This document shows positions 5,206 through 23,268 of a stretch of 32,606 nt of DNA, piece by piece. The DNA is taken from positions 1 to 32,606 of IMG/VR virus record IMGVR_UViG_3300020192_000048; one strand, given 5' to 3'. The notes beneath the pieces are model-generated. The model worked only from the letters and a program-made list of their open reading frames with translations. It searched no databases and was not told the origin of the DNA. A program made the translations under genes and the position numbers. The DNA comes from a virus. Each line of letters opens with the position of its first letter. The stretch's first letter is position 1.

Positions 5206-6786
5206 ATCGAAGCCACAAGTGAAGCCACAAGTGAAGCCACAAATAAGACCATAAGTAATTCTCAATTTGATTGTCAATCTGACTTAGCACGGCTCTATCA
5301 GACGCGTGATCATTTCATCGCTTATTGTTTAGAATTAGAGGCTCAAGGCGATCATGAGCTATCTAAAAAGCTATTGTTAGGTGTTTCTAAGAATTGGAAT
5401 TTCTATTTTCAGCTCGCAAAACTACCTTACGAAAAGCAAGTTCAAGCCTTAAAACATATGCCTAAAGCGCATATGAGAGAGCTAGAAAAAGCATGGAAGT
5501 GGATAAGTCGACCGGAGCAAATCCCTCCCGACGATTTCAATATTTGGGTATTTCGAGGCGGTCGAGGAAGTGGGAAAACGTTCTCAGCTTCGAATTGGTT
5601 TGCTAACGAAGCTCTAATGATTCCTGGAGATTATGCGGTAGTCGGACAGGTAATGGACAACGTTAGAGGGACCATAATGTTTGGTCGTGAAAGCGGTTTG
5701 AAGCGTGCATTATTGGAAATGGATCCTAATTGCATCGAAACTGAGAGCACGAGAGAGTGCAATATTCACCTTAAAAACGGTTCAAAAATACTAGGTTTTG
5801 GAGCTGGCAAACCTGAGAGTCTCCGCGGTTACAATTGGTCCGGTATTTGGTTCGATGAGTTAGCGTTTTATAGCAACGCGGATTCGACATTTTTCGACAC
5901 CATGCCTTCGGTTCGGCAGGGCAGGGCGAGAGCATTAGTTACAACTTCACCGAGCAAGCAAAATAAGGCATTACTTCGCAAGATTGAATCAATGCCAGGC
6001 ACGGTAACAGCTACATCGATTAGCTATAAAAACTTATCAAATGTGCATCAAAACCAACTAGGAATTTGGAAAAGTTTCGAGGGCACTTCTCGATATAATG
6101 AGGAAGTGTTAGGTGAATTTGATAACTCTGACGGTGGCTTATTTAGAGCTGAAAACTTCCGACGATTAGCTCAAGTTGATTTCAACGCGACGGATTATCA
6201 CACCAATGCAAAACTAGAATTTAATCGAATAGTTGTAGCCATAGATCCTAACAATTCGAACACTAGCAATAGCGGTGAATCAGGAATCATAGTTGTAGGT
6301 AAGCGATGGTTCAAAAATGAGCTAACAGGAATCGATGAACCAACGGCACATATTTTAGCTGATTACTCTATGAGGGGTGACAGAAATGAGACGATTTTAA
6401 CGGCAATTCAAGCCTATAAAAATTGGGGTGCTGATGAGATCGTTATTGAGGTAAATTCGGGTGGCGACTGGCTCAAAGAAGCATTTCAAAAAACCGATTC
6501 GAGCGTAAACGTCAAAACGGTTTGCGCGAGCGCTAGGAAAGGGAAGGGCGCAAGAGCAGAACCGGTAGCGGTATGTTATCAGCAACGCAAAGTATATCAT
6601 CGAGGATATTTCGCAAAATTAGAGCAACAAATGCTAGATTTTGTCGATGCTCCGAGGATGGCAAAAGGACTATCGCCAGATCGTATGGATGCTCTGGTTT
6701 GGGGAGTTCAAACATTAATTTTAGACGGTCAAAGGACAGGATTTGCTAGAGGATTAACATCCCAGGACTTCCCCCTTTGGTACTGA
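5206..6786 (+). CDS. Terminase large subunit (ATC start)
   Basis: 526 aa if started at ATC 5206, six nt after AAGGA (5195-5199). The frame is closed by the small terminase TAA at 5191, and no ATG, GTG or TTG occurs in frame until TTG 5374, which would remove a well-formed helical N-terminus. ATPase motifs: Walker A GGRGSGKT at about 118-125 and Walker B GIWFDEL near 213-219. Nuclease-domain acidic residues appear in VVAIDPN, EIVIEVN and SPDRMDALVW. It pumps DNA into the prohead and cuts genome ends. The first codons contain three copies of a 12-bp repeat (5209-5244). An out-of-frame ATG at 5201 gives only 17 codons. Confidence 0.9.
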   Translation: MEATSEATSEATNKTISNSQFDCQSDLARLYQTRDHFIAYCLELEAQGDHELSKKLLLGVSKNWNFYFQLAKLPYEKQVQALKHMPKAHMRELEKAWKWISRPEQIPPDDFNIWVFRGGRGSGKTFSASNWFANEALMIPGDYAVVGQVMDNVRGTIMFGRESGLKRALLEMDPNCIETESTRECNIHLKNGSKILGFGAGKPESLRGYNWSGIWFDELAFYSNADSTFFDTMPSVRQGRARALVTTSPSKQNKALLRKIESMPGTVTATSISYKNLSNVHQNQLGIWKSFEGTSRYNEEVLGEFDNSDGGLFRAENFRRLAQVDFNATDYHTNAKLEFNRIVVAIDPNNSNTSNSGESGIIVVGKRWFKNELTGIDEPTAHILADYSMRGDRNETILTAIQAYKNWGADEIVIEVNSGGDWLKEAFQKTDSSVNVKTVCASARKGKGARAEPVAVCYQQRKVYHRGYFAKLEQQMLDFVDAPRMAKGLSPDRMDALVWGVQTLILDGQRTGFARGLTSQDFPLWY

Positions 6787-6802
6787 TAAAACGAGGAACA
6801 CA

Positions 6803-8260
6803 ATCGAAAAAATAACTCATAAAGATCTAACTAAACGAAAGCTTAACAGAGAGCTAACACGCATCTTGGATCGTAACGCTCTGTATGCTGGGGGCGAGTT
6901 ATTCAATAATCGTATCTCAAGATTTGTTACTAAAACACCTGCGGATTCCGAGAAAACATATCATCGCAAACGTTCATGTGCGGCGGATCAGCATGTTAAT
7001 TATTTGGCAAATGCTGTAAATTATTTCGTGAGTTATCTGTTTAGCCATCCTATGAATTTCGTTCCTCGTGAAGCAGTAGCTGATGAGATTTATAACGATT
7101 TCAAAAACGATTGTGATGGATCTGGTAGAGACTTTGAGAAGCTAATGGAACTAGCTTTCCAAGAGAGTTTATTAAATAAAGTTAGCGCTTTGGTAGTTAG
7201 TTTTCCAGAATTAGATAAACTGCCTGAAAGTCTCAAAGAATGGGAAGATTCAGGAGCTGGACGACCAGTTTTACAGCTTTATAAATCGGCTGAAATAGTG
7301 GACTGGGAGTACGACGAGACAGGTGATTTACAGTGGATAACTCTTGCTAAAAGAGCAGTTCATAGGGTTTCACCATTTAGCGCTGAAACCAAAAATGTCG
7401 AAAAGATATCGGTTTACACGCGAACGACATTAACAGTATTTCACTTCGAATCTAAGAACGAAGTATTGCCTGATAGTGAGCCAAATTTAATAGAAACTAT
7501 CGAGCACGGGTTTCATGTTGTACCGGTTACAATGTTAGATCTTGGTGATAGGTTTATTGGTGATTTGTTATTCGCTCCGCAAGTTGCAAATTTAATTGCT
7601 CGATTCAAACGAGCTTGGTTAACGCAAACACACTCTCATTCAATGCCTGTTTTTATGACAGATGTTGACTTAAGCGACGCATTCAAATCTGCTGAAGTTG
7701 GCATTCAATTAGATTCAAAATCAAGCATCGATTTTATGAAACCTCCGAGTGAGAGTTTTACGGCTTTGCAACATGAGATAAGCGACACTTCTTTAGAGTT
7801 ATTCCGATCTGTAAACCTTCAATTTCTAGGTGAAAACAGTTCTAAACAGCCATGGCGAAGCGGTTCATCGAAGATGGTAGATCAAGATGCTGGGACTCTA
7901 ACGGTTCGCCAATATGGGAAATGGATTAGAGAAACAGCTCAAAGAATATTCAATTTAATCGCTACATATCGACAAGATGATTATCGATTTGATGTTCGTG
8001 GATTCGAGCATTTGCAAACCGACGATCTTAGTGAATTGGTAGACATAAAAAGCAAATTAGGGATCGGCTCACCGACGCTAATTGCAGAGTTTGATAAAAA
8101 GATAGTGTCTCAGTTGTTAAAAGACATGACCGAAGAAACTAAAGCGAAAGTATTTAAAGAGATTGAGGAAGCATCAATCCAAAAGACCGCACTAGATCCA
8201 GTTAATCCTGATCTAGCATCCGACGATAAATCTAATGTCATTGATTTGTTAGAGGAATAA
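6803..8260 (+). CDS. Portal protein (ATC start)
   Basis: 485 aa from ATC 6803, five nt after GAGGA (6793-6797); the next conventional start is TTG 6866. The starting segment (IEKITHKDLTKRKLNREL) is helical and charged and reads as coding. The sequence after it, with a Tyr/Arg/Asn-rich N-terminus, a long central beta region and a C-terminal helix-rich part, is like the DUF4055-type portals that go with this terminase class. The portal dodecamer forms the DNA entry vertex. Position between large terminase and scaffold agrees. Function is well supported by context, exact family less so. Confidence 0.78.
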   Translation: MEKITHKDLTKRKLNRELTRILDRNALYAGGELFNNRISRFVTKTPADSEKTYHRKRSCAADQHVNYLANAVNYFVSYLFSHPMNFVPREAVADEIYNDFKNDCDGSGRDFEKLMELAFQESLLNKVSALVVSFPELDKLPESLKEWEDSGAGRPVLQLYKSAEIVDWEYDETGDLQWITLAKRAVHRVSPFSAETKNVEKISVYTRTTLTVFHFESKNEVLPDSEPNLIETIEHGFHVVPVTMLDLGDRFIGDLLFAPQVANLIARFKRAWLTQTHSHSMPVFMTDVDLSDAFKSAEVGIQLDSKSSIDFMKPPSESFTALQHEISDTSLELFRSVNLQFLGENSSKQPWRSGSSKMVDQDAGTLTVRQYGKWIRETAQRIFNLIATYRQDDYRFDVRGFEHLQTDDLSELVDIKSKLGIGSPTLIAEFDKKIVSQLLKDMTEETKAKVFKEIEEASIQKTALDPVNPDLASDDKSNVIDLLEE

Positions 8261-8285
8261 ATAAAACCCTTAATTTAAGGACAAA

Positions 8286-8894
8286 ATGACAGATACTGAT
8301 GCAAACGCAAATGTAAACGCAAGTGTAGACCAACCAATAGACGAAGCGCCTCAATACCTAACAATCGAAACGTTTCGTGCCGAATTAAACCGCGCAGTAA
8401 CCGCAAGATTTAAAGATTTTGAGAGGAAAAACGTAAAGTCTGATCCTGTTTTAGCTGATAAAGAAATGTCAGCTGCTGAAAGCAAAGATCCTCAGATCCA
8501 AATGCTATATCGGCAAGTAAAAGAGCTACAACAAGACAAAGAAATCTCGACCAAAAAAATGCAAACTTCTGAACTTCATAATTCGCTAACAAATGAGTTA
8601 AAAGGTCGAGTAAATGATGATTGGATTGATTTAGCTGTAAAAGAGCTAGCTTCAAGAGCCGATTTTTCCGGAGGAAATGCATATATCAAATTTAATGATG
8701 AAACTCTAAGTGTTAGTGACGGAGTTAAGTCGTGGTTATCAGAACCAAGCAATAAGCGTTTTTTGCCAGCCGGACAAGTTGTTAAAAAACAATCACAAAT
8801 CACTAACAATTCAGTCAATTCAGTAAATCACGAAACCGATAGAGCCCAAGCAAAAGCTGACGCGTTAAATCTGTTTTTATCACCAAAATACTAA
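8286..8894 (+). CDS. Capsid scaffold protein
   Basis: 202 aa, ATG 8286 after AAGGACAAA. It is acidic and mostly helical with a predicted coiled coil at about residues 60-110 (QMLYRQVKELQQDKEISTKK), a low-complexity Asn/Asp-rich N-terminus and a C-terminal helix (DRAQAKADALNLFL). This is the usual form and place of a scaffold that guides capsid assembly and then leaves. No protease motif is visible in it or nearby, so scaffold removal without a phage-coded protease, or use of a host protease, is implied. The ribosome site lies in a small palindrome CCTTAATTTAAGG. Confidence 0.75.
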   Translation: MTDTDANANVNASVDQPIDEAPQYLTIETFRAELNRAVTARFKDFERKNVKSDPVLADKEMSAAESKDPQIQMLYRQVKELQQDKEISTKKMQTSELHNSLTNELKGRVNDDWIDLAVKELASRADFSGGNAYIKFNDETLSVSDGVKSWLSEPSNKRFLPAGQVVKKQSQITNNSVNSVNHETDRAQAKADALNLFLSPKY

Positions 8895-8912
8895 TAATAT
8901 AGGAGCCTAAAA

Positions 8913-9911
8913 ATGGCAGACGTTCCAGTTACTACTACAACTCAAATCCTCAGTGAAATCCTAGCTCCCGAGCTAGCCCTAGCATTTAATCGCGAGACAC
9001 GTCTTGCGCAGATCCTTCCTGTGCGTGCAGCCTCAAATGCTAACGGTCCGACATGGGTTGTTAACACCGGCGGTTCAATTGCTCGCACACATGGCGACGG
9101 TGCAGCTATCGTCGACTTTAATAGCGATGTTGACGCAAAAGCTAGCCTTAGCTGGGGTAACTACGAATCTCCTTTCCATGTGACCGATGCCGCTCTTTCA
9201 GATGCTGCTTTGTCAGCAAATCCTCGGGCAACAAATGACCAGTTTGCACGATTAGTTAGTGAATCAGTAGCTACTTTAGCTAAAAAAATCGAAACTGATT
9301 TGTTCTCTGGTTCAGGTTCAAATTCGATCATCGGCTTAGATTCAGCTCTTGATAATGCTAACACCTATGCGGGCATCGACAGAGCTTCAGCTGCTTATTT
9401 CCGAGCATCAGAATTCGGTAGCGGTTCACTTACTACTTTAACAAAAGCGCAAATCCGTAGTGATTTAGGTGTCATTACTACAGCTTCTGGCGAACGTCCC
9501 AACGTCGCTATATGTGCTCCAGCGGTGTTTTGCAAAGTTGCTGATTTATTCGAGGCTCAACGTCAGTTTACTCGTATCGATACCGGTACAGGCGTAGCTA
9601 ATTTTGGTGATTCAGGGTTACCAACTGTGATGATCGACGGTTGTAAATTCGTTGAATCAGCAGGTGATGGTTATCTTGCAAATAACAACGGCGCAATTTA
9701 CTACCTAAACACTAACTACGTTCATCTCGAAGTTGTGCCTTATGTGTCAAGCGCTATGGGTCAAGCTGTTCCAAGCGTTGTAGGCGGAATAGATATCAAA
9801 AATCTTGCTACAACCTCACATAGCCGTAAAGCCGTTTCAAGAATTAGACTACAACTAGTGGTAACAAATCCGCTGAAATTTGGTCGTCGAGTTGACATTA
9901 ACGCCAGCTAA
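8913..9911 (+). CDS. Major capsid protein
   Basis: 332 aa, ATG 8913 after a strong AGGAG. It has the features of an HK97-fold major capsid protein: an N-terminal helical arm, then a mixed alpha/beta body ending in a basic strand (RKAVSRIRLQLVV). The gene is slightly richer in G+C and in preferred codons than its neighbours, as expected for the most abundant phage protein. It follows the scaffold gene and is followed by a long hairpin at 9925-9967. Confidence 0.88.
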   Translation: MADVPVTTTTQILSEILAPELALAFNRETRLAQILPVRAASNANGPTWVVNTGGSIARTHGDGAAIVDFNSDVDAKASLSWGNYESPFHVTDAALSDAALSANPRATNDQFARLVSESVATLAKKIETDLFSGSGSNSIIGLDSALDNANTYAGIDRASAAYFRASEFGSGSLTTLTKAQIRSDLGVITTASGERPNVAICAPAVFCKVADLFEAQRQFTRIDTGTGVANFGDSGLPTVMIDGCKFVESAGDGYLANNNGAIYYLNTNYVHLEVVPYVSSAMGQAVPSVVGGIDIKNLATTSHSRKAVSRIRLQLVVTNPLKFGRRVDINAS

Positions 9912-9924
9912 ATTTGAGAACTTC

Positions 9925-10175: not shown

Positions 10176-10559
10176 ATGGCTTTTTCAACTTTAGAAGCTT
10201 CGAAAATAAGACAATTTCTCGGCTATTCTGAGATTTATCTTAATTCCATATCGGCAGTTCAAGATGCGATTAATTTAGTCGGTCTTTTACCTGAAGCAGT
10301 TACGATAGTTCAAACGTACATTACTCGATTAGATTTGATCGATGTAGCATTAGATTTAGATGCGCCCGACATTACTGGTTTCTCTAGCGTTGGTACCGGC
10401 GATCCGGAATTTTATGAAGGCGCCAAGCTCAAAGAACTTCGATCAATTGGTCGAGGCATTTGCTATAAACTCTCAATAAAAATGGGAATAGAAATTAACG
10501 CTGATTATTTTTCGACCGGCGGAACTGTTAAAAACTTACCATATTCGTTCTCGGGATAA
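10176..10559 (+). CDS. Head-tail connector/adaptor-like protein
   Basis: 127 aa, ATG 10176 after AAAGGGTGA. It is mostly helical, with the pattern of small head-completion adaptors (an N-terminal helix entry like SKIRQFLGYS, central helices, then a 'GRGICYKLSIKMG' helix close to the C-terminus). Position after the capsid gene and before the tail-terminator matches Mu gp36-type or gp6/gp15-type connector proteins. No catalytic motif. Confidence 0.55.
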   Translation: MAFSTLEASKIRQFLGYSEIYLNSISAVQDAINLVGLLPEAVTIVQTYITRLDLIDVALDLDAPDITGFSSVGTGDPEFYEGAKLKELRSIGRGICYKLSIKMGIEINADYFSTGGTVKNLPYSFSG

Positions 10560-10561
10560 TA

Positions 10562-11023
10562 ATGACGTTACGCGATAAACTACTCCCAACCGTCGATAAA
10601 GTGCGTAAATTGCCAGGTAAACTAGGCTTTCGTTTATTCGCTGTAACACTCGTGCGTCAAACTGGCGGCGACTGGTCAAAAGGCATAGCTCCGACGCTAA
10701 CAACTCTCGAAAACATAACAGTGTTTGAAGGTTATAATCCGAAGGTGCGATGGATGAATCAAGGCGATTATGCGAGAGGAACTCCAGCTGATGTAGTTTT
10801 GGAAGTTGGTCCAATCACTCCTGCTTATGATGGCGGCGGATATACTTACGAGGATTTAGAAGATCTTTCAGCGCCAAAAAACTCCACAATTCTCTATAGA
10901 ATTACCGGTCCTGGAATGCTAACAAATGGCTCACTATTTGCCAAAACTTCATTTTCTGGAAATCGAGCTTTAGGATTTTTTATTCAACTTAGACGAGTAA
11001 ATACGGCGGCAGATAATGGTTAA
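10562..11023 (+). CDS. Putative neck/head-closure protein
   Basis: 153 aa, ATG 10562 two nt after the previous stop. It is beta-rich with Gly-rich turns (YDGGGYTYEDL) and overlaps the next gene by 8 nt. Small beta-barrel head-closure proteins sit here in siphophage and myophage genomes. I assign the role by position, not by a recognised domain. Confidence 0.5.
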   Translation: MTLRDKLLPTVDKVRKLPGKLGFRLFAVTLVRQTGGDWSKGIAPTLTTLENITVFEGYNPKVRWMNQGDYARGTPADVVLEVGPITPAYDGGGYTYEDLEDLSAPKNSTILYRITGPGMLTNGSLFAKTSFSGNRALGFFIQLRRVNTAADNG

Positions 11024-11705
11024 TCAAGGCTCGATAGGTAATGCAATATTGCCTTTTACAGTTCCTACTAATTCAATTTCCGAAGTCGCAGATCCTCTAA
11101 AACAGCAATTAGTAACACTATTTACTACTGCTATTCGAACCGAAATTGAAACAGCATGGGCGGCAATATCACCGAGCATGACTATTAGCGGATCGGTAGT
11201 TAAAACAGCAATTGGTTTTGATCCAGTGCCTGCTTTATCGCTCGAAATTAACTTTGGTTTTCCTTTACTAGCAGTGTTTGAGGAATCATCAAAAATGGAA
11301 AGTTTATCACTAGAAACTGATACTTTAATTCGAAAATGGAAACTAACTTACGTGCTTCCTCCGCTTACAGCTTTAGGAGTTGGTAAATTAGAAGATGTTC
11401 GTTCAGCTGTTAGCAAAGTAATAGCTCATGTGTTTATGAGAGGATCTCATCGGGCATATAATGATGGTTATTCCCTGTCAGATCTTGGAATAATAAGCCT
11501 CGATAATTACAAATCCGAAAATGGAAGATGGGAGATTCAAAACGAAGAGTCTCTAACAATTCAATCAGTTTTAAATGTTACATTTGAAACGACTGAAATT
11601 ATCAACCTAGGAAATGATATCGGAGACTTGTTCGACGGAGTCGATTTTAAAGTTTACAACGAAGATACTGATCTGCCATTTGCGGTAGTGAAATTGGAAA
11701 CATAA
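11016..11705 (+). CDS. Tail-terminator-like protein
   Basis: 229 aa, ATG 11016 overlapping the upstream gene by 8 nt. A helix-strand pattern in the middle (LSLETDTLIRKWKLTYVLPP) and an extended C-terminal strand-helix part resemble phage tail-terminator (gpU/Mu gp37-like) proteins, which cap the tail tube and join it to the head. The place just before the tail-completion and sheath genes fits. Moderate confidence. Confidence 0.5.
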   Translation: MVNQGSIGNAILPFTVPTNSISEVADPLKQQLVTLFTTAIRTEIETAWAAISPSMTISGSVVKTAIGFDPVPALSLEINFGFPLLAVFEESSKMESLSLETDTLIRKWKLTYVLPPLTALGVGKLEDVRSAVSKVIAHVFMRGSHRAYNDGYSLSDLGIISLDNYKSENGRWEIQNEESLTIQSVLNVTFETTEIINLGNDIGDLFDGVDFKVYNEDTDLPFAVVKLET

Positions 11706-11706
11706 C

Positions 11707-12141
11707 ATGCTTTACATTGATAATTTAGAGTCTTTTTTAGAGCATCAAAGAGAGTACGTTTTACAGTTAGAAGAAGTCGTTCAAGATTCGCTAAAAGATC
11801 TTGGTTATCAGGTACTTCTGAACTGCTCTAATGATCGGAGTTTTAACGGAGTAAGACTCAAAAATTCTGTTACGTTTTCTAAAAAATCCAAGAACTCGAT
11901 TCAGACGAAAACTAACTTAAAACACGCTAGTTATTTGAACGACGGAACAGCTCCACATATAATAAAACCTAGACGTAAAAAAGCGTTAAGATTTGTTTCA
12001 TCTTCCGGAAATATCGTATTTGCAAAAAAAGTAAACCATCCCGGAACCAAAGCAACTCATTGGTTCGACAATGCAAATAAGAATGCTTTTAATCAGATTA
12101 CAGCAGAATTAGCAGGCAAAATAGACGAGATAAAATTCTAA
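11707..12141 (+). CDS. HK97 gp10-like tail-completion protein
   Basis: 144 aa, ATG 11707 one base after the previous stop. It begins with a long helix, then has the family pattern 'asYLNDGT-aPHiIkPRrkKaL.F' (residues 78-98) and 'hPGtkatHWFdnA' (residues 117-129), which is the mark of the HK97 gp10/Mu gpG-like group. These proteins sit at the neck or the tail's head-proximal end. Good match. Confidence 0.75.
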   Translation: MLYIDNLESFLEHQREYVLQLEEVVQDSLKDLGYQVLLNCSNDRSFNGVRLKNSVTFSKKSKNSIQTKTNLKHASYLNDGTAPHIIKPRRKKALRFVSSSGNIVFAKKVNHPGTKATHWFDNANKNAFNQITAELAGKIDEIKF

Positions 12142-12168
12142 CAATTTACTAATAAAGAAGAGACCAAA

Positions 12169-12513
12169 ATGGATAAACAACTATTAAAATTCGTGCCATT
12201 AGAAAATCACTGGATCGGAACAGATGAGCCAGGGACCAATATGAGCCCAGGACAATTTCATCAAGTTTTAGGGCATAGATTTAATCCGAAAACTAACTCA
12301 TACATACCAACTGGCGAAGCTTTAGAAGTAGATCCAGATTCAAGACTTGCGCGCAAACTTATAAAACTTTCCAGGAAAAAAGAGTGCGGGCTATTACCAT
12401 TCGATGCTTTTACAGCCGCTAAATGCGGACTCAATTATGAACCTGTCAAATACGATGCAAAATCGTCAAGCTGGTTAAAGGTAAAAGCGGAAATCACACT
12501 AATCAAACAATAA
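12169..12513 (+). CDS. Hypothetical tail protein just before the sheath
   Basis: 114 aa, ATG 12169 preceded by an AGAAGAG purine run. It is basic in the middle (LARKLIKLSRKKE), has a Pro/Gly-rich N-terminus and no membrane segment. In Mu the gene at this place (gp38, DUF2635) is smaller, so it is only a positional counterpart. Role unknown. Confidence 0.5.
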   Translation: MDKQLLKFVPLENHWIGTDEPGTNMSPGQFHQVLGHRFNPKTNSYIPTGEALEVDPDSRLARKLIKLSRKKECGLLPFDAFTAAKCGLNYEPVKYDAKSSSWLKVKAEITLIKQ

Positions 12514-12523
12514 CGGAGCAAAA

Positions 12524-14071
12524 TTGGCATTTATAATCGGCTTTTCTCAAGATTTCATCCTCCCCGGAACTTTTATCAAAACATCATTTGCTCAGGGACC
12601 TTCACTCGCTGGGAGTGGTTTCCGCGATGAGTTATTTGTTATGCCCAGATCAACTGCCGGCACATGGCAAGTTAATCAAATTCGCCAGGTCAAAAGCGTC
12701 GCTGAAGCTGTTGGCGGAGCAGCAGAGGGTTCACCACTTCATCGCGCGATTGAAGCTAGATTCAAGGCTAGCAAAAAAGGTCGCGTTTATGTGCTGCCCT
12801 ATCTGCCCACTAGTGGAGCAGGCGCTGTAGTAGCAGATGGTTATATCGATATCAACGGAACAGCAACAAGTCAGGGCTCAATCCTGATATCAGTCGCTGG
12901 AGAATCGTTAGTGGTTGGTTACCCAAATGGATCAACTGCTACAGCTATTGGTGAACTGGTCGAAGCCAGGTTAAACGCGTTAACTTCACTCCCTTGCACG
13001 TCAAATAACGATGCTGGAGAAGTCAAATTAACTGCTAAAATTGCGGGAGCATCACAAAATGCTGTTATCCGTTTTCGAGCATCTATTGCGTCAGGTACAG
13101 GTGTTAGCGTTGTGTTAAGTGGTGAGACTCTAGGTACTGGTTTCGGCGTAGTCGGAGCCGAGGGAGCGACTACGGAACAGGTTAATTTTGCCGCTGCTTT
13201 AGCCATAGTTACTGACCGTAAATATTACATCGTATCTTATCTTGCTACTACAGCTGCTCTCGCATCGCTGAAACTAAAACTAGTAGACGACGCTGATTTC
13301 TTGGTTGGTAAACGTCAAGTCGGAATTGCTGCCACAGTCGAAGCACATACAGCCGCAATAACCAAATCAGTTGCTCTAAATTACGAACGTTTGAGTTTGG
13401 TAAATGAACCTTCTAGCGAACATACTCCCGAGGTTTTAGCCGCTCAATATTCTGCACTAAAAGCAGTTAAAGAAAATGCTGATTCTCGCTCATGTTTCTC
13501 AGGGTTTCGTGGTGATGCTGATGTAAATTGGATCTTGATTCCGGTCGAAGATCAAACCGATAAACTCGACTCAAACGATCTAAATGATTGTTTGATAAAC
13601 GGTGTTACTCCAATCGCAAGCGACGCTGTAGGTAGCTATCTTGTCAAATCTGTAACCACACGATCTAAAGCTCCAAGCGGCGCAACAAATGATCGTCGAG
13701 CATTAGAGCCTCATCGCGTCTCAGTAATTGATGATTTCGCTGATTCGTTAGCTAATAAACATAATGCAACTTATGTCGCTCAAGGTTACATCTTGACCAA
13801 CGACGTAAAAGACAGCGACGGAAACATCGATTCACTCGCCAAATATCCCGCTAAAACAGTGACTCCAGATCGTTGGAAGAGCCTACCTTTGCAACTCATA
13901 AAAGAGTTTGGATTAGCTGGCAAAATCAAAAATGTGGCAGTAGCAGTAGCGAGTTGTGAGTGCCAGATTTCGGCAACAAATCCAGCGCGTTTAGAGAATG
14001 GTCAAAGCCTCGAAGTAGTCGATCCATTCGATCAAGTAAGTGTCAATATCGATGAAGTTTCGGCAGGCTAA
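12524..14071 (+). CDS. Contractile tail sheath protein (Mu gpL-like)
   Basis: 515 aa, TTG 12524 after GGAGCAAAA. The arrangement matches Mu-type sheath proteins: an N-terminal domain with 'pGtfi', a variable Gly/Ala-rich insert at about residues 100-215, and a C-terminal domain with a 'DRRALEPHR' segment and the terminal strand 'VDPFDQVSVNIDEVSAG' that links neighbouring subunits. The sheath contracts to drive the tube into the host envelope. It uses TTG although it is a high-copy protein. Confidence 0.85.
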   Translation: MAFIIGFSQDFILPGTFIKTSFAQGPSLAGSGFRDELFVMPRSTAGTWQVNQIRQVKSVAEAVGGAAEGSPLHRAIEARFKASKKGRVYVLPYLPTSGAGAVVADGYIDINGTATSQGSILISVAGESLVVGYPNGSTATAIGELVEARLNALTSLPCTSNNDAGEVKLTAKIAGASQNAVIRFRASIASGTGVSVVLSGETLGTGFGVVGAEGATTEQVNFAAALAIVTDRKYYIVSYLATTAALASLKLKLVDDADFLVGKRQVGIAATVEAHTAAITKSVALNYERLSLVNEPSSEHTPEVLAAQYSALKAVKENADSRSCFSGFRGDADVNWILIPVEDQTDKLDSNDLNDCLINGVTPIASDAVGSYLVKSVTTRSKAPSGATNDRRALEPHRVSVIDDFADSLANKHNATYVAQGYILTNDVKDSDGNIDSLAKYPAKTVTPDRWKSLPLQLIKEFGLAGKIKNVAVAVASCECQISATNPARLENGQSLEVVDPFDQVSVNIDEVSAG

Positions 14072-15412: not shown

Positions 15413-15431
15413 CACAACATCAACAGATTAA
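14670..15431 (+). CDS. Tail assembly chaperone, 0-frame product
   Basis: 253 aa from ATG 14670, which has AGGAG at the right spacing; an in-frame upstream TTG at 14637 lacks one. This is the usual place (between tube and tape measure) for the G/GT-type chaperone that coats the tape measure protein during tail assembly. The helical body to about residue 183 is convincing. The last 70 residues in this frame look poor (Ser/Asn-rich end), while the -1 frame there looks better, see the slip site at 15212-15218. The 0-frame tail may therefore be a by-product. Confidence 0.75.
   Translation: MSNLNLSKILANKTQPNLIADLKSNPSELFKYLSKKATENAEIVDWEVRGQIQKIRVKMLTYVEEEYCYSQALQSCKDSKFRVEELGAEQWDLKVKDAIICEIVALSITDVEPTASGNYNLTFPDAKALKSILYGNELAELVSIHNHIKSKFAKEINEREIYENIDKYVSLIANGAKVGSNFLSHMPSSIVAVITEALAMVLVILRTSQPALYQDCLENLLSIQPIVLNDSSYIEDASNSISNSLSDNTTSTD
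15212..15218 (+). promoter_or_regulatory. -1 ribosomal frameshift site U UUU UUA
   Basis: The heptamer T TTT TTA is in register with the chaperone frame (preceding codon AAT 15210-15212, then TTT, TTA). It fits X XXY YYZ exactly and is a well-known efficient slippery sequence. No obvious strong stem or upstream Shine-Dalgarno-like stimulator is seen, so efficiency may be modest. Confidence 0.75.
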
Positions 15432-15438
15432 GGGTAAT

Positions 15439-17691
15439 ATCTCAGGTCTTAATTATAATCTTTCAATCACTGGAGCGGGTCGAGTCGATCAGACTCTAGG
15501 ACAGATCGCGCGTAAAGTTGCTAAAGCTGAAAAGGATAAACTAAAAGAAGCTGAAAGAGTAGCTAAACGCATAGCCGCGACTCAGATTAAAGAAGCTCAA
15601 AAAGCGCATGATTTAAAACAAAGATTAGCCGTAAAAGAACTCGCGGAAATAGCACGAACCGCAAAAGCTGGAGAAAGAGCAAGATCCAAAGCTGAGAGTG
15701 ATGCTGCTAGACATGCGATAAGAGAAGCTGAGAGAGTTGCACGTGAACGAAAACGACTGGCTGAAAGAGCATCGCGAAACGAAATAGCTACTGCGAAAGC
15801 TACCGCTCGCGCAGTAGCTCGCGAGACAGAAAGCAAGCGTCGCCGTGGTCGTCATGTCGGCGGAGTTGTTAGCGGAGCAGTAGTAGGGTCTCTTGGTACA
15901 GCCGCTAGATTTGGCGCAGCTGGTGTTGCCTTAATGGGCGGAGCTTCGATTGCTAGTGGTGTCTCCAAGCGCTTAGCTACAGGCACGTTGGCGACCGGTT
16001 TAGCTAACAGAACTATGCTCACAGACACATCACGAACAAGACAACAAGTCAAAACCGATCTGCTAGGCACGTCGGAAAGAATTTCAAAAGATTCAGGTAG
16101 AGATCAAAGTGCAATTCTCGGCGGTATTGATCAGTTTTCTGAGATTAGCGGTGAAACTAAAGTCGGAGAAAATCTTATCGGTTCACTAACTCGCATTGCA
16201 GATGCCGTAGGAGCGACGGACGACGAATTAACAGAAATGGGTAAAGCCGCTGGAACAACGTTTGCCGCATTTAGAACTGGCGGAATGGATCTGGAAGAAG
16301 CTCAAAAATCAACAGAGGAAGCGTTTTTAAGCTTTGCAAAAATGTCGGCAATTGGCGCAATATCACTTGGAGATTTAGCGGATCAATTACCAGCACTCAT
16401 TGCAGCTTCATCACGAATGGGCGGCAATAAAGAAGAGAATCTTAACAACGTAATTGCTATGGCAAACATAGCCGTTAGTACAGCAGCTAAAGGTCCAGCT
16501 GAAGCAGCAGAAGCAGCTAAATCAATTATGTCGGACGTCGTAAAACACGAGAAAGAATTTAAAAAACTTGGCGTCGAGACTTTAAACAAGGATGGATCTA
16601 TTAGAGATATCCGAAAAATTATTACGGAAACCGCTGTTAAATCAAAAGGTCATTTAGGAAAAACTACTAAATTATACGGTGAAACTGGCGGAAAAATGTC
16701 TGATTTCGCAATGGAAATAGCGCGAAAAGGAAATGCAGAAGGTAAAAGCGACGACGAAATTACAAAAGATATCGAAGATCAAATGAACCGATTTGTTAAG
16801 CAAAAGCTAACAGACAAAGAAGTTGAAGATGCTGTAAAATTCGCGAGAGAAGATGAAGCTCGTAAATTCCAAAAAGCGTTACAAGATCTTGAAAGAGTAG
16901 TTTCCGAGCAAGTTTTGCCTGTTTTAGTTAACAATCTACTACCAGCATTTGTAGAAATGACTCCGCAAATTGCTATGATAACCAAAGAGGTTGCTAAATT
17001 CGTATCGTGGTTTGCAGCTAATCCGATTAGTGGGTTAGGTGCAATTGTGTTAGCATCAGTTGTAAAAGATCTTGCTGCCGCTGCAATTGGTAAAGGTGTA
17101 AGCACAGCGTTAGAAACGATGCTAACAGGTGGCACAGGTGGCGGTCTAGCTAAAGCCGGAACAGTAGCAGCGGGCGGTGTCGGCGTCCTGGGAACCGTTG
17201 GAGTAGCAGCTATAGGATTAGCTGTTGGTGTAGCTATTGGTAAGGCGATTACAGATTATTTGGATTCCGAGACGAAAGACAGGGAAAATAAAAGACAAGT
17301 GGCTTCTAGCGGCGCTTTAAGCACTGGATCCGGAACTTCGTTGGAAGAAAAGAAGAAAGCGTTAGCAGTTACAGAGCAGTCGATAAGAGATCAGGAAGAA
17401 TATCAATCATCAACACTTGATAATGGTACAGATAACTTGCGACGTGTTTTTAATTTTTTCCGCAAGAATAATGACCAATTAGATGATACGTCAGAACAAG
17501 CATTAGTTGATAGTAAAGAGGAACGTCAAATCATTCTGGAGCGTATTAACCGTCAAGAAATCGAAATCATGCAAGAGAAGATCAAAGCAACAGAAGCGCA
17601 TACAGCGGAAATAATTGCCCAAACTGAGAAACTTAAATCTAATACTACTACCGGCAAAAATCCACGCCCACCCGGATCTGGATCTCACTAA
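15439..17691 (+). CDS. Tape measure protein (ATC start)
   Basis: 750 aa from ATC 15439, four nt after AAGGG (15430-15434). The frame has no ATG, GTG or TTG before ATG 15934, yet the first 165 codons clearly code: a long Lys/Arg/Glu/Ala coiled coil at about residues 30-135, then a Gly/Ala hydrophobic stretch. The centre has the TP901-type tape-measure pattern (SLGDLADQLPALI, ETGGKMSDFAMEIARK), followed by hydrophobic Gly/Ala segments and a C-terminal helix. It sets tail length; by the known rule of about 0.15 nm per residue the tail would be roughly 110 nm. Confidence 0.85.
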   Translation: MSGLNYNLSITGAGRVDQTLGQIARKVAKAEKDKLKEAERVAKRIAATQIKEAQKAHDLKQRLAVKELAEIARTAKAGERARSKAESDAARHAIREAERVARERKRLAERASRNEIATAKATARAVARETESKRRRGRHVGGVVSGAVVGSLGTAARFGAAGVALMGGASIASGVSKRLATGTLATGLANRTMLTDTSRTRQQVKTDLLGTSERISKDSGRDQSAILGGIDQFSEISGETKVGENLIGSLTRIADAVGATDDELTEMGKAAGTTFAAFRTGGMDLEEAQKSTEEAFLSFAKMSAIGAISLGDLADQLPALIAASSRMGGNKEENLNNVIAMANIAVSTAAKGPAEAAEAAKSIMSDVVKHEKEFKKLGVETLNKDGSIRDIRKIITETAVKSKGHLGKTTKLYGETGGKMSDFAMEIARKGNAEGKSDDEITKDIEDQMNRFVKQKLTDKEVEDAVKFAREDEARKFQKALQDLERVVSEQVLPVLVNNLLPAFVEMTPQIAMITKEVAKFVSWFAANPISGLGAIVLASVVKDLAAAAIGKGVSTALETMLTGGTGGGLAKAGTVAAGGVGVLGTVGVAAIGLAVGVAIGKAITDYLDSETKDRENKRQVASSGALSTGSGTSLEEKKKALAVTEQSIRDQEEYQSSTLDNGTDNLRRVFNFFRKNNDQLDDTSEQALVDSKEERQIILERINRQEIEIMQEKIKATEAHTAEIIAQTEKLKSNTTTGKNPRPPGSGSH

Positions 17692-17711
17692 CTGCTAATT
17701 AAAGGAACCAA

Positions 17712-18593
17712 ATAGATTCGATTAAAACACTCAATAACCTTAGTTTTCGTGGCTTAGAACTGCCGTATACTAATCGTCAAGTTGGTTTTTCTCAGGAGAA
17801 CGCCGAGCATAAATTTATCTTTCAAGATCAAGCTTTAGTGCAACGTTTAGGCAAAAAGAACACTACTTATCGTTACACCATTCCTTACCTCGACGGGCTA
17901 AAATCATTCGCTAAAGGGAATCTTTTCAAAGATACTTTTGAGGCTTTTTATGACGCTTGCAAAGATGGTGATCCGGGTGAATTGATAGATCCAATTTATG
18001 GGTCTATCCGAGCTTCTGTCGTTAGTTTTTCTGAGAACATACAGCCTGGCAATATACGAAATGGAACAACTGTAGAAGTAGAGTTTATCGAAAGTCCGGA
18101 GTCATTACCAACAGAGAAAAAAGCATATTCGCTACCTCAATTAAAACGCGAAGAGCAGAAAGTTGTTAGTGAAGCAGTAGAGTTTCCGGAGGTTAAAGAG
18201 TTTACCAAATCACTAACAGATCCTTTTGATTTTCCCACCGGTTTACTCGATCAAATATCAGCAAGTCGAGATCGTATTCTTAGCCAAATTGACGCTAAAA
18301 CTGCTCAAGTTCAGCGCATGAGTGAGTCGATTGATAAGGTGACAGATCCTGAAGCTTGGCGAGTGAGAGAAGCAATCCGAGATTTCAATTTATCACTTAT
18401 TCGAACTTCTAAAAACGCGGTTAACAGATCTAATTTTATCACTCAAAAAGTGATCTCAAATCCCATTCCAATTGCGAACTTAGCGAGTGATCTAAAAATG
18501 CAATTTAACGAATTTCTTGCTTTAAATGAAGAGCTAATAAACTCCCCAATAGTACCAGCCGGATCAGTTGTTAAATTCAAAAAAATAAAATGA
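17712..18593 (+). CDS. DNA circularisation/N-like baseplate protein (ATA start)
   Basis: 293 aa from ATA 17712, five nt after AAAGGA (17701-17706). The frame is opened by a TAA at 17700-17702 and the first GTG is at 17838, too late because it would cut the conserved start (LSFRGLELPY, then FSQENAEHKFIFQD) of the DNA_circ N-terminal family found in Mu gpN. ATT 17721 is the only other nearby option. It is a baseplate hub-associated protein between the tape measure and gpP-like genes, as in Mu. It overlaps the next ATG (ATGA). Confidence 0.8.
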   Translation: MDSIKTLNNLSFRGLELPYTNRQVGFSQENAEHKFIFQDQALVQRLGKKNTTYRYTIPYLDGLKSFAKGNLFKDTFEAFYDACKDGDPGELIDPIYGSIRASVVSFSENIQPGNIRNGTTVEVEFIESPESLPTEKKAYSLPQLKREEQKVVSEAVEFPEVKEFTKSLTDPFDFPTGLLDQISASRDRILSQIDAKTAQVQRMSESIDKVTDPEAWRVREAIRDFNLSLIRTSKNAVNRSNFITQKVISNPIPIANLASDLKMQFNEFLALNEELINSPIVPAGSVVKFKKIK

Positions 18594-19819
18594 CCGAAAA
18601 ACAACCTAATATAAATCTCATAAATGAAAGCGCAAATCAGGCTATTCCAAAAAATCAGATCATAGGTTTCACGCTTCAAAGCAAATTTATTAACAGAGCT
18701 TTTGACACGCTAAGCATCGATCTTTTTGGTGGTTCGGAAGATGTTGATTTGGAAGAGATTCGAAGGATTACTCGACCAGGATCTTTAATGCGTTTTCAGA
18801 TCAACGAATCAGATCAATTCCTTGGACGAATCACCGATCGAGACACTTCAGATCAAGGCGTAATCCAAATTAGTTGTGCTGATTATCGAGCTGAACTCTT
18901 AAACTCTTACGTCGATCCTAGTGTGATTGTTAATCAAGGAGAAAATCTCGAAAAAGCAGCTCTCAGAATTTGCCAACCTTGGATCTCATCAATCGATAAC
19001 GATGGTTTTAATGCTCAAAGACAGCGCTTAACAGGTGGATTTTCTGAAATTGTAAAACCAGAATTTGACGCGATAAAACTAAAGGTTCCTGAGAGACCCG
19101 CTAAAGGAAACGAATCAGTTTGGCAGATGTTAATGAAGTTTTGCGAGAGAAGCGGATGTTTAATTTTACCAAGTAATGATATTAGAGTTCTCGTTCTAGC
19201 TAAGCCAGAATATAACCAAGAGCCATTGTTTAAACTTGTCAGAAATCTAAACGGCTATGGAAACAATGTTGTTAGTGGATCCATGAAAGAAAGCTACGGT
19301 GAAATCCCAACTGTCTATATTGAACTAACAAGATTTAGCGGTCAAACACGTGGTTTACCCATAAAAGGCTCCGGAACACAATATAATGTATTTGGTAGTA
19401 AGAGCATTATTCCAGCTGGTCAAACTCAAAAAGTTAGAGAAGTAATTTACGGCAATGGATCCGATGAAGAACAGCTGATTTGGGAAGGTCGACGAAATTC
19501 AAAATCAGCGCCTCTAGGTAATAAATTGTACCGACCTAGATATGTTGAAACAAATGAGTCTAAGACCGCACTTGAAGCGGAAAAATTGATGCTAAAAGAA
19601 CTATCTTCTGATTTACAAAACACACTTCAGTTGACCTATAAAATTGCAGGTTTTACTCAAAATAACGTCATTTGGTCGATCGATACTATAGCTGATGTTT
19701 ATGATGAATTACTTGACATAAAAGAACAGATGTATATTGAAGGACGTACATTTAGCTATAGCGGTTCTGGTGCTACAACAACTTTAAATCTCATTCAAAA
19801 AAACACATTCTTTTTATAA
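18590..19819 (+). CDS. Baseplate hub protein (Mu gpP / P2 gpD-like)
   Basis: 409 aa, ATG 18590 in an ATGA overlap. It shows the late-control-D/gpP plan: an N-terminal beta barrel (TRPGSLMRFQINESDQFLGR), a helical insertion, 'ERPAKGNESVWQMLMKFCER' near residue 165 (the conserved 'v..fl..la...G.l' element), and a C-terminal barrel. It forms the trimeric hub ring under the tape measure and above the spike. Assignment is strong from the motif and order. Confidence 0.82.
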   Translation: MTEKQPNINLINESANQAIPKNQIIGFTLQSKFINRAFDTLSIDLFGGSEDVDLEEIRRITRPGSLMRFQINESDQFLGRITDRDTSDQGVIQISCADYRAELLNSYVDPSVIVNQGENLEKAALRICQPWISSIDNDGFNAQRQRLTGGFSEIVKPEFDAIKLKVPERPAKGNESVWQMLMKFCERSGCLILPSNDIRVLVLAKPEYNQEPLFKLVRNLNGYGNNVVSGSMKESYGEIPTVYIELTRFSGQTRGLPIKGSGTQYNVFGSKSIIPAGQTQKVREVIYGNGSDEEQLIWEGRRNSKSAPLGNKLYRPRYVETNESKTALEAEKLMLKELSSDLQNTLQLTYKIAGFTQNNVIWSIDTIADVYDELLDIKEQMYIEGRTFSYSGSGATTTLNLIQKNTFFL

Positions 19820-19827: not shown

Positions 19828-20487
19828 TTGCTACTTAGAAATATCTCGTCCGTAGAAATAGAACCTACAACGAATCAAATAGTGCTCGTTACTAAAGGCT
19901 TGAATTTAAGTGATGATGATACGGATTCGTCAAGAAGTAAAGGGGAGCAAATGTGTGCTCTGGGAGTTACAGCTTTTCCATATATAGCCGATGAAAATGG
20001 CTCAGTTGAAGCGATGATAGATGAGCGAAGCGGTATTGTGGTTGGTATGAGAGATCCGCGTGTTGGTAAGCTATATGGGGCTTTGATAAGCGGCGATACT
20101 GCTTTACACGACACTCATTCAAATCAAGCTACGCGACTTTTGATGAAGGGCGAAGCTCGACAAGCTGCTATAATCGTGGACAAAGAAAATGGTAAACAAA
20201 TGATCTTTTCGATCGACGGGTCTGCTAAAAAAGTCCAAATAAGTGCTAATGGTGCTATGTTCCAAATTGACGATCAAGGAAATGTTCAGCTAACAAATAA
20301 AAATGGCTTTGGTCTAATAATTGATAGCAGCGGAGTTTGGGTTAAGGGTTCATGTGTTAAATTGGGCGCAAATCCTTCAATGTCTTTAGCGCAAATAATG
20401 CTACCTCCACAAAATGTGCTAGCTACGCCAGGACCAACGACTCCGATGCCACTGGGGACGGGTGCTTCAGTGATCATAACTCCATGA
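19828..20487 (+). CDS. Tail spike/central baseplate protein (Mu gp45-like)
   Basis: 219 aa, TTG 19828 four nt after AAAGGA. An N-terminal OB-like part (GEQMCALGVTAFPYIADENG) is followed by regular beta-strand repeats (QMIFSIDGSAKKVQISANGA, FQIDDQGNVQLTNKNG) typical of the triple beta-helix of gpV/gp45 membrane-piercing spikes. The C-terminal Pro/Gly-rich end lacks the His-x-His iron site of P2 gpV, so the tip may be completed by another protein. Its stop overlaps an out-of-frame ATG at 20484. Confidence 0.78.
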   Translation: MLLRNISSVEIEPTTNQIVLVTKGLNLSDDDTDSSRSKGEQMCALGVTAFPYIADENGSVEAMIDERSGIVVGMRDPRVGKLYGALISGDTALHDTHSNQATRLLMKGEARQAAIIVDKENGKQMIFSIDGSAKKVQISANGAMFQIDDQGNVQLTNKNGFGLIIDSSGVWVKGSCVKLGANPSMSLAQIMLPPQNVLATPGPTTPMPLGTGASVIITP

Positions 20488-20506
20488 TTTTAACTTTAGG
20501 ATTTTT

Positions 20507-20806
20507 ATTAGCTGTATTTTTGAACTCCCATTTCTCAGCCTTGATTTTGCCATATTTGCTCCTGTTTTGCCTGATCTTCCTAGATTTTCGTTAACAATTC
20601 TAGGCTTAGAGCTAGACCTTGAGCTTCCAGAAATCTCGCTTGATTTCCCGATACCAAGTCTAACACTTCCCTCACTGCCGATTTTTTTGCTCGCAATTCC
20701 AGGCTTAGATTTGAATCTTGAACTTCCGAATATCTCAATCGATTTTCCAATTCCGTCGCTTTCTTTTCCGTCGATTCCTAACTTTTCGCTAACGTGTCCA
20801 CTCTAA
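20507..20806 (+). CDS. Leu/Pro-rich repeat protein between spike and baseplate wedge (ATT start)
   Basis: 99 aa made of three repeats of 33, 33 and 28 residues, each ELPxIS(L/I)DFPIPSL followed by (L/F)PS(L/I)PxF and IPGL-like strands. Repeat 1 is degenerate but clearly begins near residue 6, so the frame must start before TTG 20567. No ATG, GTG or TTG exists in frame back to the stop at 20477, leaving ATT 20507 (six nt after TAGG) or ATT 20501. The protein is strongly hydrophobic yet Pro-rich, which argues against a plain membrane helix. I do not recognise it; its location suggests a spike tip or spike-wedge connector. Confidence 0.7.
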   Translation: MSCIFELPFLSLDFAIFAPVLPDLPRFSLTILGLELDLELPEISLDFPIPSLTLPSLPIFLLAIPGLDLNLELPNISIDFPIPSLSFPSIPNFSLTCPL

Positions 20807-20820
20807 TTTAAAGGCAAATT

Positions 20821-21264
20821 ATTTCAGCTCCTACTAACGGTTTTGGTACATCAAATTACGGCTTAACTCCCTTCGGCTTCTGGCGCGTCGATTTAGCGCC
20901 GAGTCGGACAGGCGGAGCTGTAGAAGCACGTTTAATCAACGCTTCAAATGGGGAGTACTCAGTTTTAGACGGCAAATTTATCGGCATGGATCGCATCAAC
21001 CAAAAAGTTATTTTGGCGATCAAAACAGTCCGTGGGTCGATACCTGGCTATGAGAGTTTCGGATCTGATTTTTCTGCCATCAAATTTAAAGATGAAAATT
21101 TCACGACTAAAATTAGAAATACGATCTCATTAGCTCTTAAAGACCTAATTGACCTTGAAGAAATCAGTTTGGAATCTGTTGAGGTATCAGAAGACAGAGC
21201 CACTGAAATTTCAATTACTTACAAAAATCTCACCACGCTTCAAAATCAAACTTTAAGGATTTAA
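20821..21264 (+). CDS. Baseplate wedge protein (Mu gp46/GPW_gp25-like, ATT start)
   Basis: 147 aa from ATT 20821, six nt after AAAGG (20810-20814). The frame opens after the TAA at 20809 and has no conventional start until ATG 20986, 55 codons in, yet the upstream codons give a coherent segment (TPFGFWRVDLAPSRTGGAVE). The body with GSIPGYESFGSDF and a helix then strand end matches the gp25/W-like family, where 'pG.....fGsdl' is typical. It joins wedge to hub and starts sheath assembly. It ends one base before the J-like gene. Confidence 0.8.
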   Translation: MSAPTNGFGTSNYGLTPFGFWRVDLAPSRTGGAVEARLINASNGEYSVLDGKFIGMDRINQKVILAIKTVRGSIPGYESFGSDFSAIKFKDENFTTKIRNTISLALKDLIDLEEISLESVEVSEDRATEISITYKNLTTLQNQTLRI

Positions 21265-22749
21265 TTGACAGATTACTATCTCCCTAATCCAGATGAACTA
21301 AGGTCTAAGTTTCTACGCGACATTGAATTAGGCTTAAACGCTCAAGGTATCGACAATCCCGCAGTCGAAGAAGGCACCGATTACTACATTTCCGGAACAG
21401 CCTATGCATCAGGTACGTCTATTCTCGTCGCGCAGCTCGCCCGACTAATAAAAAACTCATCAGAGCTAACAGCGACTGGTTTAGAACTCGACCAAATAAG
21501 ATCTGCAATCGGGCTCCCTATTGTACCAGCTATCGGCGCAACCGGACGAATCTTTCCAGTTATCTCGGGAAATAATCTAATCACATTTCCAGCTGGTATT
21601 CAATTCACCTTGGATCGAAATGGAAAAAGGGGCGAAATTGCTGGTGCTCAAACAATATTAGCTGGCGGTTCACTAGCTGTTAGAATGATAGATACTGGTT
21701 TTGATTCTGATGCGGCAGCTGAAGAGAAATTAACTTTTACGAACCCTCCAGTCAACGTGAGTGTTAGCGCAATAGTGGACGCCGATGGTTTGACCGGAGG
21801 CACTGATGATGAAAATGATGAACGCAAACGTCAACGCATCTTGAATCGTCGCCGCAACGTACCTGGTGGCGGAAACCCCGGGCAGCTAATAGAACTCGCA
21901 GAGTCGTCAACTGGGAGCGTTCAAAAGGCATTCGTTTATCCAGCTATTCTTGGTCCGTCGTACGCAAAAGTGGTCGTTACGAAATCGTTCCAACTTGATA
22001 AATCCAAGATTAGAGATTTTAGTCGTGAACTCGGCGACTCATCACTTGCAATTATTGCTTCAGCTGTTTTGGCAGAACTCCCTAGCGGTATCGAAATAAC
22101 CGTTGAATCAGCGCAAGATCAATTATTTTCATGCTCAATCGGTCTAACATTACCCGATGCGCAAGATGGCGGTTTCAAAGATTCAATTCCATTTCCAGCG
22201 CTTATTCCTGCCGATAATGGGCGAGTTACAGCAACGGTAATAACGTCTACTAACGAGATAACAGTTAGCGCTTTAGGAGCAGCTCCTGTCGTAGGGAATA
22301 AAATACTTTGGTGGTCGCCTGTCAAAAAAGAATTTCTTGAAGCGCAGATTGTTAGTTTTACAGGATCAGCAGGTTCTTACGCTTTAACACTAGACCGACC
22401 GCTAGCTATTGCTGATGAGATAGTCGCGATTGGTGATTACATTTCTCCAGCCGCTTCAAACTCACAAAATTACGGCGAGTCATTTTTGAGAGAATGTAAC
22501 AAATTGGGACCGGGTGAAAACACATCTAGTTCTGATCGTCTACCAAGAGCTAAACGTCGACCATTTATCACTGAGGACTGGGACAGTGGTTTAAAATCAA
22601 ATCAACTAAAAGCAATGTCTTTATCAAATCCAGAAATTCAAGATTTTGCTTGGATTTATAGGTCATTAAATGCTCCAACGGTTCCAGCTTTAGCCTCGAC
22701 ATCACCCAATGTTTTAGTGCCTCTACACTTCGCAATTTATAACTTATAA
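21265..22749 (+). CDS. Baseplate J-like wedge protein (Mu gp47-like)
   Basis: 494 aa, TTG 21265 five nt after AAGGA. Typical baseplate-J elements are present: an N-terminal helical region, 'TATGLELDQI...G' at about 68-80, the 'LTGGTDDENDERKRQRILNR' element at about 176-195 and a 'ERRR..PGGGNPGQL' type continuation. It forms the wedge ring that carries fibres. It is longer than many J proteins because of an extra beta insert at about residues 300-390. Confidence 0.85.
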   Translation: MTDYYLPNPDELRSKFLRDIELGLNAQGIDNPAVEEGTDYYISGTAYASGTSILVAQLARLIKNSSELTATGLELDQIRSAIGLPIVPAIGATGRIFPVISGNNLITFPAGIQFTLDRNGKRGEIAGAQTILAGGSLAVRMIDTGFDSDAAAEEKLTFTNPPVNVSVSAIVDADGLTGGTDDENDERKRQRILNRRRNVPGGGNPGQLIELAESSTGSVQKAFVYPAILGPSYAKVVVTKSFQLDKSKIRDFSRELGDSSLAIIASAVLAELPSGIEITVESAQDQLFSCSIGLTLPDAQDGGFKDSIPFPALIPADNGRVTATVITSTNEITVSALGAAPVVGNKILWWSPVKKEFLEAQIVSFTGSAGSYALTLDRPLAIADEIVAIGDYISPAASNSQNYGESFLRECNKLGPGENTSSSDRLPRAKRRPFITEDWDSGLKSNQLKAMSLSNPEIQDFAWIYRSLNAPTVPALASTSPNVLVPLHFAIYNL

Positions 22750-22761
22750 TAAAGGACTTTT

Positions 22762-23268
22762 ATCGCAAACGCAAATCCTAACTCATTACCCAGCTGGACC
22801 AAAGCAGCAGGCATCACTGATATCGACGGACATTTACAAAAAGCAAATCGCAATGGTTTAGGCGCCATAAATGTCAAAACAGATCTCTCAGCAGAAGGGC
22901 AAAGTCGACTAGTTGAACTCGTGCAAGCTTGCAATTGGGCTTCGCCATTCGCTACGATTAGACTTCAGCTGAATGATACTGTTCCAGCTGCTCCAACCGT
23001 ACTCATGTATACATCACAACATGGCGTAGGCATTTCTAAAGCACCAACTGTCGCTCGATCCGGAACAGGCGGGGCACAAGTTACTTGGAACTCGGCTTAC
23101 ACTGATTTCTTCGGGGTTTCTGGACCATTAGTGATTACCGCTGCTCAAGTTTCAACACAAGATGTGTCTGGTACTGTCAGATATACATTAACCTCTAGCC
23201 AAATAATAACGATAGTATCAGCAGCAGAAGCTATCGTTACGCTAACAGTTTGGACAGGTGGTATTTGA
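22762..23268 (+). CDS. Unknown baseplate protein (ATC start)
   Basis: 168 aa from ATC 22762, five nt after AAAGGA (22751-22756). The frame opens at the TAA of the J-like gene's trailer (22750) and lacks ATG, GTG or TTG before GTG 22921. The upstream 53 codons read as coding (SLPSWTKAAGITDIDGHLQK). The sequence is beta-rich with Ala/Thr/Val strands in the C-terminal half, like small baseplate or fibre-adaptor proteins. It overlaps the next gene by TTGA. Confidence 0.65.
   Translation: MANANPNSLPSWTKAAGITDIDGHLQKANRNGLGAINVKTDLSAEGQSRLVELVQACNWASPFATIRLQLNDTVPAAPTVLMYTSQHGVGISKAPTVARSGTGGAQVTWNSAYTDFFGVSGPLVITAAQVSTQDVSGTVRYTLTSSQIITIVSAAEAIVTLTVWTGGI

Follow-up and report, generated by a model that had tools for sequence, protein, structure and literature searches.

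In the IMG/VR virus contig IMGVR_UViG_3300020192_000048, a 32.6-kb sequence known from environmental DNA and analysed over its full 32,606 nucleotides (hereafter the window), seven of the 27 head-and-tail (late) genes appear to begin with AUA, AUC or AUU. We refer to these codons, with which bacterial proteins hardly ever begin, together as AUH (H = A, C or U), and on comparison with related phages they are very probably true gene starts. The window has a guanine-plus-cytosine (GC) content of ~41%, carries a contractile-tail structural operon from 4498 to ~28500, and has an integrase at its right end. The operon includes a Mu-like contractile-tail module with sheath, tube, tape measure, DNA_circ_N hub, gpP, gpV, gp25 and baseplate J in this order. 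These calls come from PHROG and Pfam, the annotated gene order of Mu, and synteny with MW202476 (Caudoviricetes sp., cta39025; 64% GC), whose structural operon is syntenic with that of the window; the tube and the tape measure are assigned only by position and homology to MW202476.

All seven codons lie at the sites proposed in an earlier note on this sequence (Table 1). The note placed a Shine-Dalgarno (SD) motif 4-6 nt before each of them, and we found one 5-6 nt upstream in every case, with duplex energies against the anti-SD of -3.2 to -5.9 kcal/mol. It also held for five of the genes that no ATG, GTG or TTG lies between the upstream start of the open frame and clearly coding sequence. In all seven genes, the interval from the in-frame stop codon to the AUH codon is free of these three codons. 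Canonical codons occur downstream at the distances given in Table 1. None of them has a good SD, and starting there would mostly remove conserved sequence or cut a Pfam domain. We call a gene AUH-initiated when it has an AUH codon with an SD and no canonical start that preserves the conserved N-terminus, and this is what was found. The AUH sites also sit close behind the preceding gene, 7-20 nt past its stop codon.

AUH makes up 6.5% of codons, and chance alone would place one in frame at a suitable distance from an SD (two to three codon slots) with a probability of 13-18% per gene. A simple, post hoc calculation gives p ~5e-7 to 7e-6 for seven of seven. A uniform scan for an SD and AUH without a canonical start within 15 codons called 6 of 38 open reading frames (ORFs) in the window (16%) versus 6 of 434 (~1.4%) in 15 control contigs, namely lambda, Mu, the T4 tail region, PY6, Neutron, OlisA2, two MW202476 stretches and seven IMG/VR contigs. 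Among the six control calls, three run antisense to an annotated gene and two fall ahead of an annotated start; the sixth comes from a contig without annotation. The scan missed the gene at 20507, which was probably displaced by a longer antisense ORF.

Comparison of the starts with related phages

Scans of viral contigs returned two structural relatives only, L001 and L097, the remaining matches being distant terminases and integrases, and scans of genome contigs returned no relative. L001 aligns to window positions 2640-16242 at 92% identity. The genes at 17712, 20507, 20821 and 22762 have one comparator each, the distant MW202476.

The terminase and portal genes of L001 are strongly diverged from those of the window (synonymous divergence, dS, of 0.55 and 0.30), and nonetheless both ATC and SD are retained at 5206 and 6803. 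At the portal start, L001 keeps AGGAACACAATCGAA despite a 4-nt indel in the neighbouring spacer. Indels in the terminase and portal region fall either in intergenic spacer or, inside coding sequence, in multiples of three. The ratio of nonsynonymous to synonymous divergence (dN/dS) against L001 is 0.15-0.19 for the terminase, the portal and the start region of the tape measure, that is, purifying selection. Within the terminase it is 0.19 over 5374-6783 and 0.62 over 5206-5373, and the block DLxRLYQxRxxFIAYCLELEAQGDHE, upstream of the first canonical codon, is conserved as protein between the window and L001. At 15439, the base call is confirmed by L001, which says nothing about selection here because through recent shared ancestry it is identical to the window. 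The alignment with L001 is a mosaic in its own right, with 5 substitutions over the 5572 nt of 8913-14484, none in 15439-15933, and clear divergence in the terminase and portal genes and after 15934, which suggests recombination of a head-tail core. L097 has 69% GC, a sheath 42% identical to that of the window and homologous neck genes; its contig stops within the sheath and covers no informative AUH site. With L097 and the window, the GC content of the phage lineage ranges over 41-69%.

In MW202476, the homologs of the genes at 6803, 15439, 17712, 20507, 20821 and 22762 start with ATG or GTG ~0-4 residues from the AUH codon, giving start-to-start homology for six of the seven; its terminase large subunit gave no alignment to that of the window. 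With the ATC codons kept in L001, this gives good support to the view of the earlier note that the AUH codons are genuine starts. The portal N-termini, MPTIEQ in MW202476 and IEK in the window, are offset by 3 residues. The tape measure ATG of MW202476 aligns within ~2 residues of 15439, homology between the two tape measures runs from residue 80, and the first canonical codon of the window gene lies 165 codons in. For the hub, the homolog starts with an offset of one residue, and DNA_circ_N spans residues 8-100 counted from the ATA, so that a start at GTG 17838 (residue 43) would truncate the domain. The gp25-like proteins begin MAGFGT in MW202476 and ISAPTNGFGT in the window, and the ATG at 20986 would drop this motif. 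The protein from 22762 aligns with its homolog from residue 1 (MTITPTGSPAW versus IANANPNSLPSW). The homolog of the gene at 20507 is unannotated in MW202476; its GTG at L009:4938 (L009 being MW202476) and the window ATT align start to start by eye (VCQFDLPRIALPLP versus ISCIFELPFLSLDF). This Leu/Pro-repeat gene, at ~4938-5265 on the plus strand of L009 and homologous to window 20507-20806, is in a different frame from the coding sequence deposited at 4940.

Translation could instead begin at a downstream TTG, GTG or ATG, which every frame contains, or the AUH bases could be sequencing or assembly errors. We consider this highly improbable, given the poor SDs of the downstream codons and the conserved sequence that most of them would delete. 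In addition, the separate contig L001 has the same ATC at 5206, 6803 and 15439, and seven independent third-base errors at seven start codons are not credible. Two further candidates were rejected. The out-of-frame ATG at 5201, taken as the true terminase start, would encode a peptide of ~17 codons in the window (5 in L001), and the SD would be just 1 nt from it. A four-base 'ATNG' start fails since TTG and ATC starts would put it in different frames, and since ATG starts, too, often have A at -1.

Table 1. Structural genes of the window with their start codons, SD motifs and first downstream canonical codons
Feature	Coordinates	Strand	Start	SD	First downstream canonical codon (codons away)	Basis of assignment and remarks
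Terminase large subunit	5195..6786	+	ATC 5206	AAGGA (5195-5199)	TTG 5374 (56)	PHROG terminase
Portal protein	6794..8260	+	ATC 6803	AGGA	6866 (21)	PHROG 145
Scaffold-position gene 8286 and major capsid protein 8913	8286..9911	+	ATG (both)			Capsid PHROG 9953; scaffold inferred from position
Five connector/neck-region genes (10176, 10562, 11016, 11707, 12169)	10176..12513	+	ATG (all)			11707 PHROG 5 neck; others by position
Tail sheath	12524..14071	+	TTG 12524	GGAG		PHROG 165; TTG retained in L001
Tape measure protein	15430..17691	+	ATC 15439	AAGG	ATG 15934 (165)	Position and homology
DNA circularisation/baseplate hub protein	17702..18593	+	ATA 17712	AAGGA	GTG 17838 (42)	Pfam DNA_circ_N
gpP-like baseplate hub	18590..19819	+	ATG			PHROG 177; low-copy
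gpV-like spike protein	19828..20487	+	TTG 19828	AAGGA		Homologous to MW202476 L009:4285
Leu/Pro-repeat tail protein	20498..20806	+	ATT 20507	AGGA	20567 (20)	MW202476 homolog
gp25-like baseplate wedge protein	20811..21264	+	ATT 20821	AAGG	ATG 20986 (55)	PHROG 43
Baseplate J	21265..22749	+	TTG 21265	AAGGA		Pfam Baseplate_J
Gene after baseplate J	22752..23268	+	ATC 22762	AAGGA	GTG 22921 (53)	MW202476 homolog

Start-codon usage and the proposed decoding of AUH

The codons, their SD motifs, their conservation, the homologous N-termini and the purifying selection are direct observations; how the codons are read, and why they are there, has to be weighed. The anticodon of the initiator tRNA, CAU, matches the A and U of AUH and is mismatched at the third base alone, and initiation factor 3 (IF3) penalises such a mismatch. 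The initiator fMet-tRNA would therefore pair with the first two bases of AUH, and the third-base mismatch would be tolerated. Initiation would be rescued by a strong SD, placed at the optimal distance of 5-6 nt. Close packing behind the preceding stop codon may mean that ribosomes are already there for coupling or re-initiation. An AUH site may thus work because it has both a strong SD at 5-6 nt and a preceding stop 7-20 nt away, with ribosomes present. U stands directly before the start codon (position -1) in 5 of 7 AUH genes, compared with 6 of the 27 that start with ATG (p = 0.024 in a post hoc test), and at several sites this base might pair with initiator-tRNA A37. RNA folding around the starts showed the AUH leaders to be slightly less folded, which was not significant (p = 0.16).

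Alternatively, AUH might be read as a normal start by a dedicated initiator, for instance a modified one or an additional initiator tRNA whose anticodon is of the Ile type. Every start other than NUG is indeed AUH, the Ile codon box, and CUG is absent. Searches of the window for tRNA genes and for Rfam families found none, the two-base match to CAU suffices for AUH, and the strong-SD pattern marks AUH as weak codons, so we regard a dedicated initiator as very improbable.

Among the late genes (n = 27), 14 start with ATG, six with TTG and seven with AUH, and none with GTG or CTG. Outside the late operon the count is 13 ATG and one GTG (n = 14). Non-ATG starts are found in 13 of 27 late genes versus 1 of 14 elsewhere (p = 0.014). 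The sheath, which the earlier note had singled out as a TTG exception, is one of six late genes that start with TTG (12524, 19828, 21265, 23265, 25745 and 28295). An SD of 4 nt or more, with a spacer of 4-6, precedes 13 of 13 non-AUG late genes versus 5 of 14 late ATG genes (p = 6e-4), a comparison that is partly circular since the AUH starts were originally picked out by their SD. The tight SD on all non-AUG late genes suggests compensation for a weak codon, not throttling. Weak starts are known to tend towards stronger SDs (PMC5622118). The rarity of AUH starts, also put forward in the earlier note, agrees with the literature: a single AUG-to-AUU switch was found among 61,358 reconstructed ancestral AUG starts (PMC5622118), and initiation-site profiling in S. 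aureus found four AUU/AUA sites only, with extended SDs and ~10-30% of AUG expression (PMC13009471).

The earlier note proposed that start-codon strength sets the stoichiometry of the particle, AUH cutting the output of low-copy parts and AUG serving the abundant ones. In its favour, capsid, scaffold, tube and sheath all lack AUH, and the reduced output of AUU/AUA starts in S. aureus (PMC13009471) would fit it. Many low-copy genes start with ATG, however, among them the presumably low-copy connector genes 10176-12169, the gpP hub at 18590 and the distal tail genes at 23972 and 24581, whereas the abundant sheath has TTG. None of the 4 high-copy genes has AUH, as against 7 of the 23 other late genes (Fisher p = 0.55). 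The best-spaced SDs are on the AUH genes, the opposite of throttling, and the syntenic MW202476 makes the same parts from ATG and GTG. We therefore think it unlikely that stoichiometry explains the AUH starts.

Another possibility is that translation of the AUH genes is confined to times of low free IF3, for example late in infection, so that the late operon shares the IF3 signal of infC. IF3 represses AUU starts as well as its own AUU/AUA-started gene (PMC9410913, PMC13009471), and the concentration of non-AUG starts in the structural operon points the same way. AUH genes lie among AUG genes within a single operon, which would allow partial gating at most, and the lysis-type genes (endolysin at 1788, spanin-like at 28479) start with ATG. 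Such gating seems rather improbable. A bolder reading, in which the AUH starts would be a built-in sensor of free IF3 that holds the structural operon early and opens it as the ratio of IF3 to ribosomes falls late, by the rule of the feedback on the host infC, seems improbable too.

The series of AUH and UUG starts would be accounted for most simply by weak IF3 proofreading of start codons, either in the host or late during infection. IF3 acts against weak third-base pairs, AUU/CAU among them (PMC10158994); in excess it inhibits re-initiation as well as non-canonical starts, an effect that is milder where an SD is present (PMC2268962). Where IF3 is lax, AUG would be just mildly better than other codons, and weak codons might accumulate with compensating SDs and no gene-by-gene tuning. 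To the complete statement, namely true AUH starts decoded by fMet-tRNA with the help of strong SDs and gene packing under weak IF3 proofreading in the host or infection state, we give an even chance. Besides the circularity of the SD comparison, several points weigh against it. AUH is found in 0 of 14 genes outside the late operon, unlike the prediction for a generally lax host, and 7 of 27 versus 0 of 14 alone is not significant. The AUG genes of the operon are equally tightly packed, and coupling does not distinguish the AUH genes. L001 is informative for 5206 and 6803 only, the surroundings of 15439 being identical to the window.

Other features of the window

Several observations lie outside the series of AUH starts. 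At 32273-32606, beside the integrase, a lipoprotein-like ORF (MKNMKCFGVAIALLAVACGE...) has 56% GC versus ~41% for the phage and is possibly host DNA at the edge of a provirus. Two adjacent small ORFs at 1352-1579 and 1573-1779 have near-identical starts (MLNQHKW and MLNQHNW) and may be tandem paralogs. Between 3333 and 4371, ~1 kb has no clear genes, contains AGAGAAGCCAGC-like repeats and shows many indels against L001. ORFs at 2628-3332 (plus strand) and 29139-29702 (minus strand) resemble HNH/AP2 homing endonucleases by eye.

Comparison with known systems

Gene finders that accept ATG, GTG and TTG only would truncate or miss AUH genes; the tape measure, for one, would come out 165 residues short. 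The MW202476 homolog of the gene at 20507 is an actual example of mis-annotation. Should operons of this kind prove common among uncultivated phages, both the annotated N-termini and the statistics on start codons would be biased. The operon also offers seven natural leaders on which to study how near-cognate starts depend on the strength of the SD, the base at -1, coupling and the level of IF3.

MW202476 resembles the window in its gene order from the portal through the tail and baseplate and in its homologous N-termini, and it differs in its 64% GC and in the ATG/GTG starts of the compared homologs. Like the window genes, E. coli infC, which encodes IF3, and pcnB have a start, AUU, that is weak relative to AUG, and infC is under IF3 feedback. 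These are single chromosomal genes with AUU, whereas the window has seven genes in one phage operon, including AUC and AUA. In S. aureus, infC (AUA), cvfC1 (AUU), ccpN (AUA) and citZ (AUA) combine AUH with a strong, well-spaced SD, as in the window (PMC13009471). These four are scattered over a whole genome and were demonstrated by profiling and reporters; the window starts are predicted from sequence. The T4 baseplate gene 26' has an annotated ATT start (NC_000866) and is, as in the window, a phage baseplate gene with AUU. It is, however, one internal in-frame secondary start inside gene 26, and in the window whole genes have AUH as their one start. The open-licence PubMed Central papers searched describe no structural operon with a series of seven AUC, AUU and AUA starts. 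Single AUU and AUA starts are already known from infC, pcnB and T4 26', and what appears to be new here is an AUH series that runs through an operon.

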